Source: Ralstonia pickettii DTP0602 (GTDB taxonomy: Bacteria > Pseudomonadota > Gammaproteobacteria > Burkholderiales > Burkholderiaceae). From it: DNA of 64,000 nucleotides. Below, in pieces: positions 55,180 to 63,731 of the stretch. The translations under genes and the position numbers were made by a program. The stretch is from positions 124,001-188,000 of the forward strand of contig CP006669.1 of the NCBI GenBank assembly GCA_000471925.1, in the 5' to 3' direction. A model generated the notes under the pieces. That model was not told the DNA's origin, made no database searches, and worked only from the letters and a program-made list of their open reading frames with translations. Numbering within the stretch: the first letter of the stretch is position 1; each line of letters begins with the position of its first letter.

Positions 55180-55577
55180 CCATGGCTGGCGGATTCTCTC
55201 AGTCACCCGCCGGCGGGAGTGAGCCTTCCCACCGCTGCTCACTCCTGGTAGAGAGCGTCTGCTATCTCTTCACTGCCCGGATCCCAAGTCGCCGCTGTCG
55301 AGTGGGGCCATCTCCGGGAGGGATCCATTTGGCCGGCAAGGGACGGTGGCCGGCAGGTAGCGGCCGGCCGCTTCAACCCTTCGTTGTCATTCGCCCAGGG
55401 CTCAGTAGGCGACTTAACGCGCTCCGCTAACGACTGGTGAGCAGGTATGCGTCCGGGAGACAGGCGCCACCTCGAAAGGGTGATCGAGTTCATCGACCAT
55501 TATCGCGAGGGCTGCGAGAGGTTCGTGTCTGCGCGCAGGGAGGCGCGCGTAGGCGCCCGCGCCTTTAACCCCGCATG
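55180..55577. other. Intergenic region without a supported gene
   Basis: About 400 bp at the end of the convergent YitT gene and the truncated monooxygenase. A GC-rich inverted sequence (GTGGCCGGC ... GCGGCCGGCCGC, near 55340-55372) could fold but has no T-run. A 60-codon frame at 55447 is not supported. Confidence 0.4.
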
Positions 55578-56287
55578 TCAGCAGGACTCCGCCGCGGGCA
55601 ATTGCAGGCGTAGCGCATCCATCCGCGCGTAGAAGTCGTTCACCTGCCGCTGTGCGTTGCATCGCATCGTCTCGTTGCGCGCCCTCAGGCTGGCCGCGTC
55701 TTCCTGCGCCCCGGTCTCGCCGACTTTGCGCGAGGTGTCCTGCACGAACTTGCACAGGGGATAGCGTGCCTCACCGAAGGCTCGCAGCGTGGCCTCCACG
55801 CCGACGTCGCGCGACAGCATTTCCGCCAGCAGCACCGCGTCTTCGAGCGCCATCGCGCCGCCTTGTCCCGTGAAAGGTGTGGAGGCGTGCGCGGCGTCAC
55901 CGATCATGATCACACGGCCACGGTGCCAGGGCAGTGGGGCGGCGACCTCTTCCACGGCGGTGTAGAGCACTTTGGCGTCAGCCGAGAGCGCGTCCAGGAA
56001 CTGGCGCGCCGGGCCGCCGAACTCCGCAAAGCGGGCTTGCATCATCGCCGGCCAATCGTCGCGCTCATACCATTGCCCGGCGGGCTCGGGCAGCGTGCCG
56101 AACAGGTACAGTTGGTCGTCGCTGATCGGCATGATGCCGAGCCGCTTGCCGGTACCCATCATCATGATCTTCGCGGTGAGGTCTTTCAGTCGCGCATGCA
56201 CGCTGCGCCAGACGCCGAGTCCGGTATAGTCCGGCTCCAGCGGGCCTGCGACCAGGCGGCGGACTGACCGGCCAGTCGATGTACCTG
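55578..56287 (-). pseudogene. FAD-dependent aromatic monooxygenase, N-terminal third missing
   Basis: The remaining sequence reads RSVRRLVAGPLEPDYTGLG, then GIMPISDDQLYLF, and the FAD-binding GD motif VIMIGDAAHASTPFTGQGG followed by MALEDAVLLAEML, as in PHBH-type monooxygenases (NicC/salicylate hydroxylase-like). The N-terminal Rossmann GxGxxG part and the DG motif are absent: the homology begins between 56270 and 56290, directly after the stop of the M20 peptidase gene. The ATG at 56201 could start a 207-residue fragment, but it could not bind FAD normally. So a deletion has fused the 3' remnant to the end of the operon. Confidence 0.78.
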
Positions 56288-56302
56288 GCCGGCGTCGTCC
56301 CG

Positions 56303-57463
56303 TCAGGCCAATTCCAACACCAGGTTGCGATAGATCTCCCGCGCCCCCTCCAGTTGTTCCAGTGCGATCGATTCATCGATGGTGTGCGCATCCTCCTCGC
56401 ACCCCGGCCCCAGGCCGATGGTCGGAATACGGCGGCGTCCGGCGGACTCGGAGCCGTTTGTGCAAAACGCCCAGCTCCCGACCTGTGGTGAGCGGCCCGC
56501 CTGCGCGATCGCACGCACGGCGGCTTGCACGAGCGGGGCGCTGTCCGGCTGCTGCCATGCCGGTAGCCAGCGGGTCGGTCGCGCCGATTCGCCGGTAAAG
56601 GTTCGCACTTCGTCGGCTGACACCGCCAGCGAGAAGTTGTGCAGACCGGCGGCACGCAGGCAGGCGTCGATCTGACCGAGAACGTCCTCGCGCGTCTCGC
56701 CGTCGAGGGTACGGCGGTCGAAGCGAATGGTGGTGGAGGTCGGGATCATCGAGATCGATGGATAAGGCGACGAGACGATGTCCGTCGGCACCAGCAGCGC
56801 AGCGCCAAGCACCGGGTCGGTCGGCAGTTGCAGTCCTTCCAGCGCGGTTAGCGCGCGCGCGGCGGCGATCAGCGGATTGACACCGAGGTGGGGCGTCGCG
56901 GCATGCGCCGGTTTGCCGTGGAAAGTCAGCCCGATCTCGAGCCGGCCCTTTTGTCCCGTCTTGACCTGCAGTTTCGACGGTTCGCAGATGACCACCGCCG
57001 CGGGATCGCACCGGCCCAGCACCGACGCCAGCGCGTGCCCTTCGATGACTTCCTCCAGCACGCTGGCGGAAACCGCGATGCGCTTGCGCAGCGGCCGTGT
57101 CCGCGCTGCCGCCGCGACGCCGCAGATCGCCGCGGCGATGCCGCCCTTCATGTCGGTGCTGCCGCGCCCGTGCAGTCGACCGTCGTGGATCGTGCCGCCG
57201 AACGGGTCGAAGCGCCACTGACCGGTGACCGGCACGACGTCCATATGGCCGTCGAACAGCAGCGCCACGTCTGCATCCTCGGGGCCGATCAGCCCGAGCA
57301 CGCTGCCGTTGCGATCCATCGTCACCGACGTGAAGCCGGCTTCGGACATGCGGCGCATCAGCAGCGCGGCGAGGTCGCCCTCCTGGCCCGAGAGGCTGGG
57401 AATGCGCACCATCTCGCGCGCCAGCGTGGCGACGTCACTGATATTGCATGCTTGATCGATCAT
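56303..57463 (-). CDS. M20-family deacylase/peptidase (ArgE/DapE/YgeY-like)
   Basis: A 386-residue M20 metallo-hydrolase. Metal ligands and catalytic residues are visible in LLFDGHMDVVPV (His, and catalytic Asp two residues on), GRGSTDMKGG (bridging Asp), VLEEVIEGH (catalytic Glu pair), ICEPSKL and the C-terminal GPGCEEDAHTIDES (last His). The dimerisation lid lies in the middle (KGRLEIGLTFHGKPAHAA). These enzymes remove an acyl group from N-acyl amino acids. In E. coli the related ygeY gene stands next to the diaminopropionate lyase gene ygeX, which favours a role here in deacylating N-acyl-2,3-diaminopropionate or a similar compound. Confidence 0.85.
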   Translation of the reverse strand: MIDQACNISDVATLAREMVRIPSLSGQEGDLAALLMRRMSEAGFTSVTMDRNGSVLGLIGPEDADVALLFDGHMDVVPVTGQWRFDPFGGTIHDGRLHGRGSTDMKGGIAAAICGVAAAARTRPLRKRIAVSASVLEEVIEGHALASVLGRCDPAAVVICEPSKLQVKTGQKGRLEIGLTFHGKPAHAATPHLGVNPLIAAARALTALEGLQLPTDPVLGAALLVPTDIVSSPYPSISMIPTSTTIRFDRRTLDGETREDVLGQIDACLRAAGLHNFSLAVSADEVRTFTGESARPTRWLPAWQQPDSAPLVQAAVRAIAQAGRSPQVGSWAFCTNGSESAGRRRIPTIGLGPGCEEDAHTIDESIALEQLEGAREIYRNLVLELA

Positions 57464-57481
57464 GTCGGATTTCTCTTGTTG

Positions 57482-58831
57482 TCAGCGGTTGACCAGCGTG
57501 GCCGGCACACGGAGCACCAGCAGTGCGCCGATCACGGTGAAGGAGGCGAGGAAGTACATACCCCAGTCGGTCGAGCCGGTCAGGTCCTTGATCCAGCCGA
57601 TCGCGTAGGGGCTGGCGAAGGCGGCGAGGCCGGCGAAGGCATTGATCGCCGCGATGCCGGCCGCCGCGCTGCGGCCTTCGAGGAATGCGGTCGGCAGGCT
57701 CCAGAACAGCGGCGAGCAGACCATGCAGCCCGCCGCAGCCACCGACAGCATCGCCACCGCGAGCGTGGGGTTGTGGCTGAACAGCGTGCTGAGCGCCAGC
57801 CCGGCGCCGCCGACGAGGAAAGGCACCACCATGTGCCAGCGCCGCTCGCGCGTCCGGTCCGAGTGGCGGCACACCAGGATCATCGACACCACCGCGAACG
57901 CGTTCGGGATCGCCGTCAGCAGTCCCACGTCCAGCAGCGAGACCACGCCTGTCGAGCGGATCACCGACGGAATCCAGAACGCCAGGCCCGACAGGCTGGA
58001 GACCGTGCAGTAGCAGATCAGCGCCATGTGGATCACGCGGCGGTCCCGGAACAGCTTCAGCAGCGACACGTGTTCGACCTTGGCCGCCTTTTCTGCCGCG
58101 ATGTTGTGCGCAAGGCGGTGCTTCTCGGCTGCGCTCAGCCACTGCGCGTCGGCGATGCGGTCGTCGAGATACCACACCACGGCAAGCCCCAGCACGATCG
58201 ATGGAATCGCCTCGAGCAGGAACATCCATTGCCAGCCGGCAAAGCCGTAGTGGTTGTGCATGCTCTCCATGATCCAGCCGGACAGCGGCCCGCCGAGGAT
58301 GCCGGCCATCGGCACCGCGGTCATGAATACCGCGATGACCGCCCCGCGGCGGTGCGACGGGAACCAGTAGGTGAGGTACAGGATGATGCCGGGATAGAAG
58401 CCGGCCTCGGCGGCGCCGAGCAGGAAGCGCAGCACGTAGAACTGCGTCGGCGTTTTCGTCAGCGCCATGCAGGCCGAGATGCAGGCCCACAAGATCATGA
58501 TGCGCGCCAGCGTCTTCTTCGCGCCGATGCGGTGCATCAGAACATTGCTGGGGACCTCGAACAGGAAGTAGCCGATGAAGAAGATGCCGGCGCCAAGACC
58601 GTACACCGTGTCGCTGAACTTCAACTGGTCCAGCATCTGGAGCTTGGCGAAGCCGACGTTGACGCGATCGAGGAAGGCAGCCACGTAGCAGGCCATCAGG
58701 AAAGGCAGCAGTCTCCAGGCCACCTTGCGGTACAGCGCGTGATCGTGCGCTGCCATCGTGTCCGTGGTCCCGGTGTTCGGGGTTGTGGCCGGGGTGCGCA
58801 GCGTCTGCGCGGAGTGCAGGGAATCGCTCAC
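57482..58831 (-). CDS. MFS transporter of the anion:cation symporter (ACS) family
   Basis: A 449-residue transporter with 12 predicted helices. Family marks: CYVAAFLDRVNVGFAKLQM (TM1), LFEVPSNVLMHRIGAKK and RFLLGAAEAGFYPGIILYLTYWFP (quoted in part). ACS carriers import organic anions with protons. The GTG start at 58831 is decided by AAAGGAGG lying seven bases upstream; a longer frame to 58864 has none. It lies between the M20 and carbamoylase genes and is the natural importer of the pathway's substrate. Confidence 0.9.
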   Translation of the reverse strand: MSDSLHSAQTLRTPATTPNTGTTDTMAAHDHALYRKVAWRLLPFLMACYVAAFLDRVNVGFAKLQMLDQLKFSDTVYGLGAGIFFIGYFLFEVPSNVLMHRIGAKKTLARIMILWACISACMALTKTPTQFYVLRFLLGAAEAGFYPGIILYLTYWFPSHRRGAVIAVFMTAVPMAGILGGPLSGWIMESMHNHYGFAGWQWMFLLEAIPSIVLGLAVVWYLDDRIADAQWLSAAEKHRLAHNIAAEKAAKVEHVSLLKLFRDRRVIHMALICYCTVSSLSGLAFWIPSVIRSTGVVSLLDVGLLTAIPNAFAVVSMILVCRHSDRTRERRWHMVVPFLVGGAGLALSTLFSHNPTLAVAMLSVAAAGCMVCSPLFWSLPTAFLEGRSAAAGIAAINAFAGLAAFASPYAIGWIKDLTGSTDWGMYFLASFTVIGALLVLRVPATLVNR

Positions 58832-58940
58832 TATGTTCCTCCTTTGGATTTGGCGAGACAACAACGCCCCCTGCGGGCGCCCGGAAGCGCCTGCATCACG
58901 TTATTTTTTTATTCGCGAAGGGGGCGGGGAAGGGTGCCGG

Positions 58941-59885
58941 CTACGCGGCCACGGCTTGCGGCGGCGTGGCGCCCCGCTGGCTGGTGATGCGGCCGTAGGC
59001 CTCGGGGCGGCGGTGCCGGTCGAAGTTGAACGTCGTGGTCTTGTACGACTGGCACAGGTCAAGGTCGCAGCGCGCGATGGCCAGCTCGTCGCCCTTGGTC
59101 GAGCAGGCCGCGACGATCTCGCCGGACGGCGCGATGATGCAGGTGCCACCGATCATCTCGCAGCCTTCCTCCTTGCCGGCCTTTGCCACGCCGACCACCC
59201 ACGTGCCATTCTGGTAGGCGCCGGCCTGCATCACCAGGTGGTTGTGGAACATCGACAGGTCGTCGTGTTCCGGCGCGGGCGGGTTGTGCACGGGCGTGTT
59301 GTAGCCGAGCAGGATCATTTCGGCGCCCTGCAGGCCCATCACGCGATAAGTTTCCGACCAGCGGCGGTCGTTGCACAGCGCCATGCCCATCACGCCGCCA
59401 AACGCCTGCCAGACGCCGAAGTCGTCGCCCGGCTCGAAGTAGCGCTTCTCGAGGTGCTGGAAGGCGCGCCACGGCTCATGCTGGTCGTGGCCGGGCAGAT
59501 GCACCTTGCGGTACTTCCCGGCGATCCTGCCGTCGCGGCCGACGAGGATGGCAGTGTTGTAGCGGCGCTCGACGCCGCCCTCGACCGCCAGTTCCGCGTA
59601 GCCGAGGTAGAAGCCGATGCCGAGCCGCGCGGCGGTCTCGAACAGGATGCGGGTCTCGGGGCCGGGCATCTCGCGCTCGTAGAAGGCGTTGAGCTCCTCG
59701 GGGTCTTCCATGTACCAGCGCGGGAAGAACGTGGTCAGCGCCAGCTCGGGGAACACCACGAGGTGGCAGCCCATCTCGTGGGCGTGGTGCAGGTGGCCCA
59801 GCAAGCGGGCGACGACGTCGCGGCGCGAATCGCTGCGCTGGATGGGGCCGAGCTGGGCTGCGGCGACGTGGACGAAGCGGGACAT
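58941..59885 (-). CDS. N-carbamoyl-D-amino-acid hydrolase-like (nitrilase superfamily)
   Basis: A 314-residue nitrilase-superfamily amidase. Catalytic triad: E47 (VVFPELAL), K127 (KYRKVHLPG) and C171 (MALCNDRRW), matching the residues of D-carbamoylase from Agrobacterium. The HDQHEPWRAFQHLEKRYF segment is also typical of D-carbamoylase. It hydrolyses N-carbamoyl-D-amino acids to D-amino acid, CO2 and ammonia in the cytoplasm. Fourth gene from rpiR in the operon, 30 bp after the L-type enzyme gene. Confidence 0.88.
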   Translation of the reverse strand: MSRFVHVAAAQLGPIQRSDSRRDVVARLLGHLHHAHEMGCHLVVFPELALTTFFPRWYMEDPEELNAFYEREMPGPETRILFETAARLGIGFYLGYAELAVEGGVERRYNTAILVGRDGRIAGKYRKVHLPGHDQHEPWRAFQHLEKRYFEPGDDFGVWQAFGGVMGMALCNDRRWSETYRVMGLQGAEMILLGYNTPVHNPPAPEHDDLSMFHNHLVMQAGAYQNGTWVVGVAKAGKEEGCEMIGGTCIIAPSGEIVAACSTKGDELAIARCDLDLCQSYKTTTFNFDRHRRPEAYGRITSQRGATPPQAVAA

Positions 59886-59915
59886 GATGGGGTGTCTCCA
59901 GTTATGCGGTGAATG

Positions 59916-61163
59916 TCATGCGGCCAGCTCGAGCATCAGGTCGAGCAGCACGTCGGCGCCGGCCTGGATGTCGTGGTCGTGGGTCAGTTCGGCGACGTTG
60001 TGCGAAAGGCCGCCCACGCTCGGCACGAAGATCATGCCGGCGGGGCACATGCGGGCGAGCATCTGGGCGTCATGCCCGGCGCCGCTCGGCATGCGCCGCA
60101 CGCTGTGGCCGTGGCGGCGCGCGATGGCCTCGACGCGGGCGACCATGCCTTCGTCGAACGCCACCGGTGCGAAGTCAGCCAGCGTACGTTGGGTGAGGCG
60201 CACGCCCTCGGCCTTCGCCATGTCCTGCGCATAGGCCAGCGTGCGCTGCACGGCCCCGGCAAGCACCGCGCCGTCGGTATTGCGCAGGTCGACCGTGAAC
60301 ACCGCGCGGTTCGGAATCACGTTGACCAGATTCGGGAAGAACTGCACCTGGCCGACCGTCGCGAGCTGCGCGCTGCCAAGTTCGCGCGACAGGTCCCGCA
60401 CGAAGCAGGCGATCCGCGCGGCGACAAGGCCGGCGTCGTGGCGCAGCCGCATCGGCGTGGTGCCGGCATGGTTGGACGTGCCTTCGACGGTGAACTCGGT
60501 CCAGTGGATGCCTTGCACGCCGGTGACCGCGCCGATGGTGATGCCCTCATGCTCCAGCACCGGTCCCTGTTCCACGTGCAACTCGACAAAGGCATGGACG
60601 CGGTTGCGGCCCACCGGCGCCGGTCCGGCATAGCCGATCCGGGCGAGGTTCTCACCGACCGTGGTGCCGTCGATGCCCTTCGTATCCAACGCCTGCCGCA
60701 GCGGAAGGTCGCCCTGGAACACCAGGCTGCCCATCATGTCGGGGGCGAAGCGCGCGCCTTCCTCATTGGTGAAGAAGGCCGCTGCCAGCGGGCGACGCGT
60801 GACGATGCCGGCGTCGTCGAGCGCCGCCATGACCTCCAGGCCAGCGAGCACGCCGAGGTTGCCGTCGTAGCGGCCGCCGGTGCGGACGGTGTCGATGTGC
60901 GAGCCGGTCATCACGGGCGGGAGGTCTTCGCGGCCGGCACGTACGCCGACCACGTTGCCGATGCCGTCGATGCTGATCGACAAGCCCAGCTCGCGCATCC
61001 ACGACACCACCAGGTCGCGCCCGGCGCCGTCCTCGTCGGTCAGGGCGAGCCTGCAGACGCCGCCGCCGTCGATGGCACCGACTTCGCCGAGCGCGGCGAT
61101 CCGCCGCAGCAGGCGGGGCAGGTCGATTCGCGCCGTCTGTTCAAGGTCGAGGGTAGCGTTCAC
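59916..61163 (-). CDS. N-carbamoyl-L-amino-acid hydrolase/allantoate amidohydrolase-like (M20)
   Basis: A 415-residue binuclear-metal amidohydrolase: TGSHIDTVRTGGRYDGNLGV carries the first metal ligands, FTNEEGARF the catalytic Glu, and HVEQGPVLE, SNHAGTTPM and SGAGHDAQ are family hallmarks of the HyuC/AllC group. It removes the carbamoyl group from ureido amino acids. The start is GTG, overlapping the lyase stop by four bases. Together with the D-type enzyme it would convert both enantiomers of a carbamoyl amino acid. Confidence 0.88.
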   Translation of the reverse strand: MNATLDLEQTARIDLPRLLRRIAALGEVGAIDGGGVCRLALTDEDGAGRDLVVSWMRELGLSISIDGIGNVVGVRAGREDLPPVMTGSHIDTVRTGGRYDGNLGVLAGLEVMAALDDAGIVTRRPLAAAFFTNEEGARFAPDMMGSLVFQGDLPLRQALDTKGIDGTTVGENLARIGYAGPAPVGRNRVHAFVELHVEQGPVLEHEGITIGAVTGVQGIHWTEFTVEGTSNHAGTTPMRLRHDAGLVAARIACFVRDLSRELGSAQLATVGQVQFFPNLVNVIPNRAVFTVDLRNTDGAVLAGAVQRTLAYAQDMAKAEGVRLTQRTLADFAPVAFDEGMVARVEAIARRHGHSVRRMPSGAGHDAQMLARMCPAGMIFVPSVGGLSHNVAELTHDHDIQAGADVLLDLMLELAA

Positions 61164-62392
61164 GCTGCCTTCCTCACGTCTTCCGGCAGGCGGCCGACGA
61201 TGCGCTCGTAGAGTTCCACGTCGGTCGCGCCTTCGCTGCCGAACACCAGCACCCGGCTGGCAGCAGTCAGGCCGAGCGGTTCGCGCACGGCGGCATCGGC
61301 CATCGCGCCGAGGCAGCCGGCCAGCCCCGCGACCGCCGATTCGCCGGCCACGATGGGCGTATCGCCATAGCGGCCGTCGGCCAGGAGGCGCACGCTGTCG
61401 AGCGCGGAGGCATCGTCAATGGTCAGGAAGGCATGCGCGCCGGGATGCAGGACTTCCCACGCCAGCAGCGAGACTTCGCCGCAGGCGAGACCGGCCATCA
61501 CCGTGTCGAGGTCGCCGTGGATCGCCACCGGCTTGCCGGCGCGCGCGCTTTCATACAGGCAGGCGGCCTTGTCCGGCTCGACCACGATAAAGCGCGGGCG
61601 CTTGTCGCCGAGTACTTCCCAGAAGTGCGCGCACACGGCGGCTGCGAGTCCACCCACGCCGCCCTGCAGGAAGACATGGGTCGGAAGCTGGCCGTCCGGC
61701 AACTGATGCAGCGCCTCGTCGGCCATCACCGCGTAGCCCTGCATCACGTCCTTCGGCACCTCCATATAGCCTTCGTAGGAAGTGTCGGACACCACGAAGC
61801 GGCCCAGCCGCGCCGCATCGTCGGCCGCCTGGCGCACCGAGTCGTCGTAGTTGCCGGCTGTGCGGGCCACCTGCGCGCCGTACTGCTCGATGGCCGCCTT
61901 GCGGCCTTCGCTGACGGTGGCGTGGACATAGATCACGCACTGGCAGCCGAAGCGCTGCGCGCCCCAGGCGACCGAGCGGCCGTGGTTGCCGTCGGTGGCG
62001 CAGGTCACGGTAATGTCGCGGACCACGTCGGCATAGCGGCCCGACAGGAGATCGTCTACCGACACGTCGCTCACGCCTAGCCGGCTGGCGATCTCGCGCA
62101 GCAGCAGGCGGCTGACCGCGTAGGCACCGCCCAGTGCCTTGAAGCTGCCCAGCCCGAAGCGGCCGCCTTCGTCCTTGTAGAGGATCTGGGCGACACCGGC
62201 GGCACGCGCGAGGCCGTCGAGGGCGACCAGTGGCGTCGGCGCGTAGCCCGGCCAGCGACGGATCTGCGCGGCCGCGCGGGTGAAGGCTTCGCCGCCGAGC
62301 ACGGCTTGCTGGCGGGACCCGTAGGGGGCGCCGGGCGTGGCGGCCGGGTTCAGGGCGCACTGCAGCTTCAGGTTGGGGAGCGGATGATTCAA
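61160..62392 (-). CDS. dpaL: 2,3-Diaminopropionate ammonia-lyase
   Basis: A 410-residue fold-type II PLP enzyme. The cofactor Lys is K85 (GLGSFKALGGA); D135 lies in CATDGNHGRS; GGVGGLAAAV is the phosphate-binding glycine loop, and EGYMEVPKDVMQGY is characteristic of DpaL. It converts D- or L-2,3-diaminopropionate to pyruvate and two ammonia. In E. coli the same enzyme (ygeX) lies beside an M20 peptidase and a hydantoinase, comparable with the present operon. First structural gene after rpiR. The following gene starts within its stop codon. Confidence 0.92.
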   Translation of the reverse strand: MNHPLPNLKLQCALNPAATPGAPYGSRQQAVLGGEAFTRAAAQIRRWPGYAPTPLVALDGLARAAGVAQILYKDEGGRFGLGSFKALGGAYAVSRLLLREIASRLGVSDVSVDDLLSGRYADVVRDITVTCATDGNHGRSVAWGAQRFGCQCVIYVHATVSEGRKAAIEQYGAQVARTAGNYDDSVRQAADDAARLGRFVVSDTSYEGYMEVPKDVMQGYAVMADEALHQLPDGQLPTHVFLQGGVGGLAAAVCAHFWEVLGDKRPRFIVVEPDKAACLYESARAGKPVAIHGDLDTVMAGLACGEVSLLAWEVLHPGAHAFLTIDDASALDSVRLLADGRYGDTPIVAGESAVAGLAGCLGAMADAAVREPLGLTAASRVLVFGSEGATDVELYERIVGRLPEDVRKAA

Positions 62393-62413
62393 GACAGTCT
62401 CCTTGGTTGGGAT

Positions 62414-63262
62414 CTAGCGATGGAGGTCGCCGTAGTGGTCATGGAGTGACTCGATTTCCTCGAGCCGCTCGCGCGCCGCGTCGCCGAGGACCAGCGCGAG
62501 GCATGTGCAAAGGTGGTTGATCAGGCTGACGGCGGCGACGTAGGAGTCGAATACCGCGGCGCCGTGGTTGACGCAGCGGAGCACTACGTCGGAGCGCGCC
62601 GGCAGATCCGTCGCGCTGGGGTCGGTCAGGATCACGACCTTGGCGCCGACGCGGTTGGCGTGGGCGACCATCGGCCACAGCAGCGTCACGCGTCGGCGGA
62701 AGTCCATCACCAGCAGCACGTCGCCGGCGCCCAGGTCCGCCAGGTCTTCGGCGAGGTTCAGGCCAGCGCCCGGCGCTAGCGTCACATGCGGCCGCAACTG
62801 GGTCAGTAACGCCCACGCGTATTGCGCAAGCACGCGGCCGTTGCGAAAGCCCGCGATGAAGACCCGCCGCGCATCGGCGAATATCGCGACGGCGCGCTCG
62901 ACGTCGGCCGGATTCAGGCGGTCGAAGGTGTGGGCGAGGTTCTGCATGTCGTTGGCGAGGTGGCGCGCCAGCGGCGCCTGCTCGTCCGCTGGGGCCTGGA
63001 CGCCGGCCAACTCATACAGCGGTGAGCCGCGGTCGGATTCGTCGCGCAGAAGGGACCGGACCTCGTTGAAATTCTCGTAGCCAAGGCGGCGGAAGAACCG
63101 TCCGGCCGTCGCCTTGGAAACGCCGGCCTTCTGCGCCAGCTCGGTTGCCGAGTAAGCCGCAAGGTTGCCGATGCACTCGAGGGTGACGGCGGCCAGGCGG
63201 CGCTCGCTTTCGGTGAGCTGGTCGTGGAGCGCGAGGATCTTGTCTTGCAACGATGGGGTCAT
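62414..63262 (-). CDS. RpiR-family transcriptional regulator
   Basis: A 282-residue regulator: N-terminal HTH_6 (residues about 1-75; ELAQKAGVSKATAGRFFRRLGY) and a C-terminal SIS domain (about 125-260; RRVFIAGFRNGRVLAQ, GDVLLVMDFRRR, KVVILTDPSATDL). SIS domains normally bind phosphosugars; in this branch amino-acid-derived effectors are also found. The start at 63262 gives the right family length and leaves the three palindromes outside the coding sequence. It heads the dpaL operon, 21 bp before dpaL, and probably binds the adjacent operators. Confidence 0.9.
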   Translation of the reverse strand: MTPSLQDKILALHDQLTESERRLAAVTLECIGNLAAYSATELAQKAGVSKATAGRFFRRLGYENFNEVRSLLRDESDRGSPLYELAGVQAPADEQAPLARHLANDMQNLAHTFDRLNPADVERAVAIFADARRVFIAGFRNGRVLAQYAWALLTQLRPHVTLAPGAGLNLAEDLADLGAGDVLLVMDFRRRVTLLWPMVAHANRVGAKVVILTDPSATDLPARSDVVLRCVNHGAAVFDSYVAAVSLINHLCTCLALVLGDAARERLEEIESLHDHYGDLHR

Positions 63263-63275
63263 GATTGGGTCCGGA

Positions 63276-63351
63276 TGAAACTTCGGTTTCAGAAATATAG
63301 GTGAATGAAACTTTAGTGTCAAACAAAATTAAACGTGAAACTTTGGTTTCA
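63276..63351. promoter_or_regulatory. Three 16-bp palindromes exactly 30 bp apart before rpiR
   Basis: TGAAACTTCGGTTTCA (63276-63291), TGAAACTTTAGTGTCA (63306-63321) and TGAAACTTTGGTTTCA (63336-63351). Each is an inverted repeat TGAAAC-N4-GTTTCA (one mismatch in the middle copy). The start-to-start distance is 30 bp in both intervals, about three helical turns, so bound dimers would lie on one face. The first copy is 14 bp before the rpiR start codon. They are probable operators for the regulator. The remainder up to 63617 has no supported gene. Confidence 0.75.
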
Positions 63352-63617
63352 GAGTATGCATTTTTACGCACATGACGTTGTGGGGGCGGGCTGGTGCACA
63401 CAGCCGAGTAAGCATGTCTTAGAGAGGTTTGCACGCGCCGGTCAGGCGACCAGATCGCCGTTAGCGTCTGGGCGCAGTGCACCACGGCAAAGGTCCGGTA
63501 ACAGAGAAACCGGGTGTGCGGGGTCTTGGTGATGACCGGCGGCTGGCCGTGCGCGAGAACGTGCGTGCAGTGGGCGCGAAAGCTATAGAATCCAAGGCAT
63601 CTCTTTGGGGGAAGCCC

Positions 63618-63731
63618 ATGTCATTACCCTGCACTGCCAGCTATCGAGAGGTCTCGCTTGGTCTCCGGTCGCGAGACGAGCGCGAGTTCATTCCGAAAGG
63701 CAATGCGCAATACGGGGGCAAGCGACAATGA
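63618..63731 (+). CDS. Small protein (37 aa) coupled to the next gene
   Basis: ATG preceded by GGGGG at 63607-63611, with a stop (TGA) that overlaps the next start as ATGA (63728-63731). The product (MSLPCTASYREVSLGLRSRD...) is polar, with no membrane segment and a basic tail KRQ. Overlap and ribosome site suggest a translated leader gene, but no family is recognised. Confidence 0.4.
   Translation: MSLPCTASYREVSLGLRSRDEREFIPKGNAQYGGKRQ

Follow-up and report, generated by a model that had tools for sequence, protein, structure and literature searches.

Which substrate would call for the 2,3-diaminopropionate (DAP) ammonia-lyase DpaL together with two carbamoylases of unrelated folds? This question is raised by an operon of Ralstonia pickettii DTP0602, which lies in the 64,000-nucleotide stretch of DNA analysed here (the window; contig CP006669.1, our contig C3, positions 124001-188000), part of an 8.13-Mb genome in three contigs. 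The operon combines dpaL with genes for an M20 carbamoylase of the HyuC/AllC type (hereafter L-carb), a D-carbamoylase of the nitrilase type (D-carb), a probable importer and a second M20 hydrolase, of the YgeY family. We propose that it is probably a hydrolytic form of the reductive urate pathway's lower branch, coupled to an importer, the carbamoylases replacing YgeW/UacY and YgeY in bacteria of the Pleomorphomonas group.

The unit and its enzymes

The open reading frames (ORFs, called with a simple GC-position score that made some starts too long), their translations and family scans placed all the named genes on the minus strand, in one unit (56303-63262) preceded by three operators reaching position 63351. 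They confirmed the minus-strand unit of RpiR, dpaL, two carbamoylases, ACS importer and M20 enzyme described in an earlier note on this DNA. The six genes are as follows:

62414..63262, minus strand: regulator of the RpiR/MurR family with HTH_6 and SIS domains, 282 amino acids (the ORF extends to 63322; the probable start is the ATG at 63262)
61160..62392, minus strand: dpaL, 2,3-diaminopropionate ammonia-lyase (NF006058, 529 bits; cut-off 276)
59916..61163, minus strand: L-carb, M20 carbamoylase/amidohydrolase of the HyuC/AllC kind, with metal-site and carboxylate-binding residues and D142
58941..59885, minus strand: D-carb, D-carbamoylase nitrilase with E47, K127, C171 and the CNDRRW motif
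57482..58864, minus strand: major facilitator superfamily (MFS) transporter, probable importer (TIGR00893/2A0114, 337 bits, below the cut-off of 395)
56303..57463, minus strand: YgeY-family M20 hydrolase (NF009555, 390.1 bits; cut-off 321)

The intergenic gaps do not exceed 76 bp, and dpaL and L-carb overlap by 4 bp. We take the 2A0114 group matched by the transporter to be the one named ACS (anion:cation symporter).

DpaL is 42% identical to Escherichia coli YgeX over 392 aligned residues, its K85, D134 and D203 aligning with K77, D120 and D189 of YgeX; its score against the narrower model TIGR03528 was 353 bits, below the cut-off of 532. K85 is presumably the lysine that binds pyridoxal phosphate, and D134 and D203 the two aspartate bases of the enzyme.

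The best match of D-carb in the PDB was 8i99 (432 bits). Its E47, K127, C171, N172 and R174-R175, the last four in the CNDRRW motif, match the published catalytic residues, namely the Cys172-Glu47-Lys127 triad plus Asn173 and Arg176 (PMC11503299; like PMC10952681, PMC12507026 and PMC4016543 below, cited from the part of its text that was available). D-carb is thus a close homologue of the D-carbamoylases of the D-hydantoinase process, with their triad and CNDRRW motif, but it is linked to DpaL and not to a hydantoinase.

The PDB matches of L-carb were hydantoinase/carbamoylase-family enzymes, and its E134, Q199, R294 and H388 match, by motif, Glu131, Gln196, Arg291 and His385 of RrCbetaAA, an enzyme of the HyuC family that is most active on N-carbamoyl-beta-alanine, L-specific and inactive on N-carbamoyl-D-amino acids (PMC10952681). 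An AllC-like role on allantoate was rejected, L-carb scoring 266.5 bits against the AllC equivalog TIGR03176 (cut-off 597.75). L-carb keeps the metal-site and carboxylate-binding residues of the HyuC/AllC/beta-ureidopropionase enzymes, but differs from them by Asp142, which stands in a P-D-M-x-G-S signature beside the NEEG metal-site motif. This aspartate was present in 90 of 90 module-type matches with at least 52% identity (a count that includes the gene of the window and three duplicated genomes), whereas the position holds alanine in five PDB sequences, valine in E. coli AllC, serine in a 48% match (L090) and a gap in two 33-35% matches. Our guess is that Asp142 recognises the extra nitrogen of a DAP substrate, and from the alignments the signature might possibly be diagnostic for DAP-type substrates.

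Conservation of the DpaL, L-carb and D-carb module

A DpaL search in 80 genomes (E <= 1e-60) found matches in 21 of them, the window's own included, all of the same genus. The same six genes were found in the same order, with 89-99% identity, in 7 of 47 other same-genus genomes. Type 1 loci (DpaL identity 90-96%; seven other genomes) have the six genes in order in all cases. Type 2 loci (59-62%; five loci) have RpiR-DpaL-L-carb-D-carb plus a divergent solute-binding protein, with parts of an amino-acid ABC importer in L041. Type 3 loci (46-51%; 12 loci) have an L-carb relative (53-55%) beside DpaL in six (L048, L049, L050, L053, L054 and L055) and none in the other six; the pairing of DpaL with this relative alone possibly reflects an L-albizziin-type pathway. 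As a separate observation, the type 1 operons of C. pinatubonensis and C. numazuensis (L039 11855-15653, and L040) are divergent to genes for an NCS2 (xanthine-permease-like) protein, a TRZ/ATZ-type amidohydrolase and a small protein with no NCBIfam match, a possible link to nucleobases. The five remaining same-genus type 1 loci did not show this amidohydrolase, which we merely note, as it scores 143 bits to SsnA versus 191 to a TRZ/ATZ model, both far below cut-off.

A DpaL-anchored scan, with one genome per species, was then restricted to the best 80 of 564 relatives, so that its proportions describe the nearest DpaL relatives only; carbamoylases were called at 50% identity or more, on the strand of DpaL. 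Both carbamoylases occurred in 50 of these 80 loci, in Beta-, Alpha- and Gammaproteobacteria, which bears out the co-occurrence of DpaL with both families that the earlier note had proposed to check. Where at least 4 kb were available on both sides (62 loci), both enzymes were found in 44, L-carb only in three, D-carb only in three and neither in 12. Among the 50 loci with both, 48 have the start of L-carb no more than 200 bp 3' of DpaL, and 44 have an RpiR match. Their importers are of the ACS type (14 loci), the amino-acid ABC type (16, two of which also have an ACS carrier), the dipeptide ABC type (nine) or the TRAP type (seven), as judged from gene clusters named by hand, with nine representatives checked against Pfam. 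The complete set of six genes was found in 14 of the 80 loci, two of them in genomes already counted among the seven same-genus carriers. Some matches are split or partial: in L139 D-carb is matched in separate parts, in L192 only in part, and in L044 L-carb is in two pieces.

Two further lines of evidence are worth noting. First, the distance matrices of DpaL, L-carb and D-carb correlate with r = 0.87-0.91 over 69 loci, a value reached by none of 999 permutations and to which shared species history contributes. These 69 loci, drawn from 106 sequences, have all three proteins above length limits; L042 and L116 are from one genome, and the G043 and G017 loci were excluded (the duplicate records are G043 = L060, G017 = L061 and G041 = L116, while L039 and L040 come from the same genomes as L060 and L061). 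Second, in 399 genomes of the order, five of the six D-carb matches with at least 72% identity have DpaL 1.2-1.4 kb away (the exception being G542), versus none of the 36 matches with 69% identity or less (DpaL at E <= 1e-90). DpaL, L-carb and D-carb thus form a real conserved module.

The last M20 enzyme of the unit, 32% identical to E. coli YgeY, follows this module. A YgeY with at least 55% identity was found in 17 of the best 80 loci, all with both carbamoylases and 14 with the ACS carrier; in three Alcaligenaceae loci (L083, L085 and L087) it accompanies a dipeptide-type ABC importer that replaces this carrier. These findings bear on the suggestion of the earlier note that the enzyme deacylates an N-acyl-DAP, such as the Lathyrus compound ODAP, in which case the carbamoylases would serve hydantoin-derived amino acids. 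The M20 enzymes related to YgeY do include the ArgE and DapE deacylases, and ACS carriers transport organic anions. We nevertheless regard this suggestion as highly improbable, because the enzyme scores 390 bits against the YgeY model and 152 bits against the best non-YgeY model, all 17 loci hold both carbamoylases (a 38% match in L107 does not), and the unit has no hydantoinase, though two occur elsewhere in the genome. The substrate suggested by the family is another one, since E. coli YgeY and YgeX act on albizziin (PMC12507026).

The link to urate breakdown

A 2013 study pointed out that hyuA, ygeW, ygeY, ssnA and xdh genes lie in clusters (PMC4016543), and the E. coli pathway was rebuilt in 2025 (PMC12507026). 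XdhD, YgfK, SsnA and HyuA lead to 2,3-diureidopropionate (DUPA); YgeW, or UacY of Clostridioides difficile, a D-aminoacylase homologue, acts on the HyuA product to give albizziin; and E. coli YgeY and YgeX, assayed on albizziin, produce pyruvate, YgeX being equally active on both DAP isomers (PMC12507026). According to a commentary, the order and stereochemistry of ureido removal are unsettled, with R proposed, and the pathway is restricted to obligate or facultative anaerobes (PMC12990295). The unit of the window shares with the E. coli pathway DpaL (YgeX) and a YgeY-family M20 enzyme, which in E. coli end the pathway via DAP to pyruvate and ammonia. YgeW, YqeA, YgfK, SsnA and XdhD are absent from the unit, which has two carbamoylases and a carrier instead, and whose regulator is of the RpiR family, whereas the E. 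coli cluster carries ygeV, putatively a sigma-54-dependent regulator; for an XdhD-type dehydrogenase, the search covered the ORFs of the unit. Unlike the E. coli route, hydrolysis of the carbamoyl groups would yield no carbamoyl phosphate. The C. difficile variant (UacX, UacY) relies on an enzyme of a D-specific type to hydrolyse off the 2-ureido group (PMC12507026), as does the route we propose for the window, but our candidate for this step is the nitrilase-fold D-carb, whose fold is unrelated to that of UacY.

The tie with this pathway came from the metagenome-assembled genome CTSoil_106 (L139), in which D-carb is followed by a gene that matches positions 4-403 of YgfK before the contig end cuts it, the rest of the operon being L219. 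Such a YgfK-like protein was found in 13 of 120 genomes around this one (itself included), five of them named Pleomorphomonas. In all 12 loci fetched from this group, RpiR is divergent to DpaL-L-carb-D-carb-YgfK'-XDH, where YgfK' is a short YgfK-like protein and XDH a xanthine dehydrogenase-type enzyme; an SsnA-like gene comes next in 11 of them (L187 ends first). XDH exceeded the TIGR03311 cut-off of 830 bits in the four loci scanned (879-902 bits). YgfK' (about 674 amino acids) matched TIGR03315 alone, over its first 410-422 positions, in the three scanned; the YgfK' that was compared with Pfam has a 4Fe-4S domain. The SsnA-like protein was most similar to SsnA in four loci out of four. XDH-, YgfK- and SsnA-type enzymes with DpaL make up the core of urate clusters (PMC12507026). 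Among 397 genomes of the order of G131, YgfK' occurred in 16, and outside the group its loci read L-carb-D-carb-YgfK'-XDH-SsnA (L216 and L217) or L-carb-YgfK'-XDH-SsnA (L218). In L216 and L217, L-carb is preceded by a 395/396-amino-acid gene that had no NCBIfam match at E <= 1e-10; the other genes beside these three clusters were unrelated-looking or had no match.

It is worth noting that the YgeY model (E <= 1e-40) found no match in the 13 Pleomorphomonas-group genomes or in four type 2 Cupriavidus, and that the YgeW model (E <= 1e-10) found none in 22 of 23 genomes, including all 13 of the group and that of the window, the exception being Vibrio hangzhouensis. Consequently, if DUPA is the intermediate, the removal of both ureido groups would fall to the two carbamoylases in the Pleomorphomonas group, which favours an action on two positions. 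A distant M20 enzyme or D-aminoacylase acting there in trans is possible.

The earlier note had assigned the two carbamoylases to the two enantiomers of one compound, a proposal that we revised in view of the Pleomorphomonas group. It supposes a racemic mono-carbamoyl-DAP of plant or microbial origin (albizziin or 3-amino-2-ureidopropionate), one enantiomer being handled by each carbamoylase, with no link to urate. It agrees with the L-specificity of the characterised HyuC-family enzyme, inactive on N-carbamoyl-D-amino acids (PMC10952681), with the equal activity of YgeX on both DAP isomers (PMC12507026), with the occurrence among the best 80 loci of some with only L-carb or only D-carb, and with the amino-acid ABC and TRAP cassettes, which have no SsnA, YgfK or HyuA match beside them (except a HyuA in L136, 5-6 kb off on the other strand). 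We regard it as unlikely, since the Pleomorphomonas pair shares its operon with YgfK-, XDH- and SsnA-type genes while the YgeY and YgeW models find nothing there; the published chemistry then needs the pair, or an unrecognised enzyme, to remove both ureido groups. For the window itself, either assignment may apply: with a YgeY present, YgeY may take the 3-ureido group and the carbamoylases the 2-ureido group of either configuration.

Another ureido- or amino-substituted product of a heterocycle (for example of 5-substituted dihydrouracils or hydantoins) also has to be weighed as the substrate of the cassette; the XDH, YgfK' and SsnA-type enzymes of the Pleomorphomonas group would then act on some purine or pyrimidine that is not urate. 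Both YgfK' and the SsnA-like protein diverge from the characterised enzymes, SsnA gives two products in E. coli (PMC12507026), and two Cupriavidus type 1 operons face the NCS2 permease and TRZ/ATZ-type amidohydrolase genes mentioned above. This possibility appears to us decidedly unlikely, given that the combination found with DpaL is the one that forms the core of the urate clusters.

Among the other neighbours, a 226-amino-acid gene after SsnA was rejected as a hydantoin racemase, being fructose-6-phosphate aldolase-like in the three cases scanned; such a gene follows the SsnA-like gene in several Pleomorphomonas-group loci (e.g., L189 15239-15919), with no apparent role. Hydantoinase was rejected as a discriminating marker, as it matched in 20 of 20 genomes, YgfK'-free ones included (19 over cut-off; G126 not). 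XdhA-like genes near DpaL were judged incidental, PrkA, DUF444 and SpoVR intervening in L075 and a cytochrome c gene adjoining in L136. YgfK' belongs to a large family: the protein of L189 (9324-11348) has at least 7160 homologues at E <= 1e-80 among 8000 scored candidates, and most of those with a name among the 120 listed are annotated as glutamate synthase, 4Fe-4S protein or selenate reductase, possibly in error for purine reductases. In Azospirillum isscasi (L090 11185-12831), a 548-amino-acid protein after DpaL gave a weak Amidohydro_3 match (45.5 bits); UacY of C. difficile being an Amidohydro_3 protein, it may be another remover of ureido groups.

Operators, proposed route and significance

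The region upstream of RpiR and the one downstream of the unit contain the following features:

63336..63351, minus strand: operator O1, a TGAAAC-N4-GTTTCA palindrome that precedes the -35 box, kept in relatives
63306..63321, minus strand: operator O2, one mismatch, overlapping the -35 box and spacer
63276..63291, minus strand: operator O3, shortly after the -10 box
63294..63322, minus strand: sigma-70-like promoter, TTGACA-17-TATATT, 11 of 12 matches
55578..56201, minus strand: C-terminal fragment (207 amino acids) of an FAD-dependent monooxygenase, PRK06847/HpxO-like, its N-terminal half absent; outside the unit

The three operators are spaced by 30 bp upstream of the RpiR ATG at 63262. The promoter is the only such site in 55400-63700, a count that is not significant alone (shuffle mean 0.7), and the TTG at which the RpiR ORF seems to start is the first triplet of its -35 box. 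With up to two mismatches, the operator pattern has three matches in the window, all upstream of RpiR, a number reached by 8 of 100 shuffles. Each of the seven same-genus type 1 loci has three copies (two of the genomes belong to the scan set as well). An RpiR match occurs in 51 of the best 80 loci, 28 of which have an operator (at most one mismatch) between -150 and +400 bp of the RpiR start; in total, 41 matches lie near RpiR starts versus three elsewhere in 1.41 Mb, with 0.85 expected from mononucleotide shuffles. One related palindrome with two mismatches lies in the region scanned around the RpiR/DpaL junction in 12 of 12 Pleomorphomonas-group loci, a weak match considered without shuffle control. 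This layout of operators and promoter suggests that RpiR would act as a repressor.

The outer edge of O1 coincides with 63351, the end of the interval (55578..63351) that the earlier note gave to the operon. The six-gene unit and its operators fill this interval except for 55578-56201, the unrelated FAD-monooxygenase fragment directly downstream of the operon, which matches profile positions 190-356 of 375 only. As it comprises a C-terminal half only and has no counterpart in any of the 80 best related loci, it was ruled out as an HpxO-like urate step and is probably a gene remnant rather than a member of the unit.

By analogy with the E. coli and C. difficile pathways, we propose the following route. 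RpiR, bound to its three operators over the promoter, would be released by a ligand. The ACS-type transporter would import a ureido acid, most likely DUPA or a mono-ureido product (albizziin or 3-amino-2-ureidopropionate). D-carb would remove the 2-ureido group of the D form, and L-carb and/or the YgeY-type M20 enzyme the 3-ureido group; alternatively, L-carb would act on the L form, at its 2-ureido group. DpaL would split the resulting DAP, of either configuration, into pyruvate and ammonia, and every carbamoyl group would yield CO2 and ammonia. In the Pleomorphomonas group, where the same core shares an operon with XDH-, YgfK- and SsnA-type enzymes, the carbamoylases would stand in for YgeW/UacY and YgeY.

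Several observations weigh against this proposal. First, the functions of the enzymes and transporter, down to the substrates, the direction of transport and the position cut by each hydrolase, are those that we infer from families and residues, and the last M20 enzyme is below the cut-off of the narrower model TIGR03526 (212 versus 321.5 bits). Second, among the best 80 DpaL loci, 20 have neither carbamoylase, six L-carb only and four D-carb only (several being short contigs), and 23 of the 51 RpiR-bearing ones lack an operator at one mismatch or less. Third, YgfK' has no C-terminal FAD part (354-395 bits versus a cut-off of 835) and the SsnA-like proteins do not reach the cut-offs of the SsnA models (258-276 of 444; 240-259 of 455.5). 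Fourth, no DpaL occurs within the fetched 20 kb in three of the 16 YgfK' genomes (G768, G783 and G809), and no D-carb in G768. Fifth, hydantoinase is absent from the Pleomorphomonas-group operon, hydantoinase-like genes lying elsewhere in these genomes and also in YgfK'-free relatives. Sixth, the window genome has no YgfK (best 185.6 of 835.3 bits, partial) or SsnA (best 160.3 of 455.5) over cut-off, so that nothing ties its operon to urate itself. Seventh, Vibrio hangzhouensis, the only species with YgfK over cut-off among the genomes of 50 of the best 80 loci, has both a classical YgfK/SsnA/XdhD/YgeY/YgeW cluster (L186, with YgeY at 693 and YgeW at 658 bits on its contig) and a TRAP-linked DpaL/L-carb/D-carb cassette on another contig (L118); hence the breakdown of internal urate need not be the task of the cassette, in keeping with a scavenging role of its own.

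A complete urate pathway in the window genome was accordingly rejected from YgfK and SsnA, XdhD and UacY not having been searched genome-wide; HyuA is not in the unit, though two matches to the D-hydantoinase model over cut-off (562.8 and 522.8 bits) lie elsewhere in the genome, such genes also being present in YgfK'-free genomes. Since YgfK and SsnA are not over cut-off, the window operon would be a stand-alone scavenging unit for an imported ureido acid.

The earlier note was supported in proposing the catabolism of carbamoylated DAP. It was also right that the E. coli set is a different combination, but it understated the link, because the YgeX/YgeY pair is common to both and the core of the module shares an operon with YgfK, XDH and SsnA homologues in the Pleomorphomonas group. 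Likewise, its view that the combination is not a described pathway stood: among the open-access papers listed, we recognised none, by title or beginning of the abstract, as describing DpaL with both carbamoylases, so that it seems new, most subscription journals being outside this search. The published neighbourhood survey marks YgeY by the general M20 domain PF01546 (PMC12507026), which L-carb also has; the survey as available could therefore not tell YgeY from L-carb.

Together, these data lead us to a wider proposal, to which we give an even chance: in Proteobacteria, the reductive urate pathway would have a third variant that is hydrolytic throughout, with a D-carbamoylase and a HyuC/AllC-type carbamoylase in place of YgeW/UacY and YgeY, and its importer-coupled, stand-alone versions, controlled through a shared RpiR operator as in the window, would let soil and plant bacteria cross-feed on ureido-diaminopropionates from urate degraders or plants. 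If true, the urate pathway would extend to Pleomorphomonas and its relatives and, as a scavenging module, would reach Cupriavidus, Paraburkholderia, Achromobacter, Pandoraea, Rhodoferax and others. With two unrelated and well-studied carbamoylase folds, the question of order and stereochemistry becomes directly testable as one position of one enantiomer each. Finally, the finding suggests a native role for some D-carbamoylases, a subfamily known mainly as industrial catalysts.

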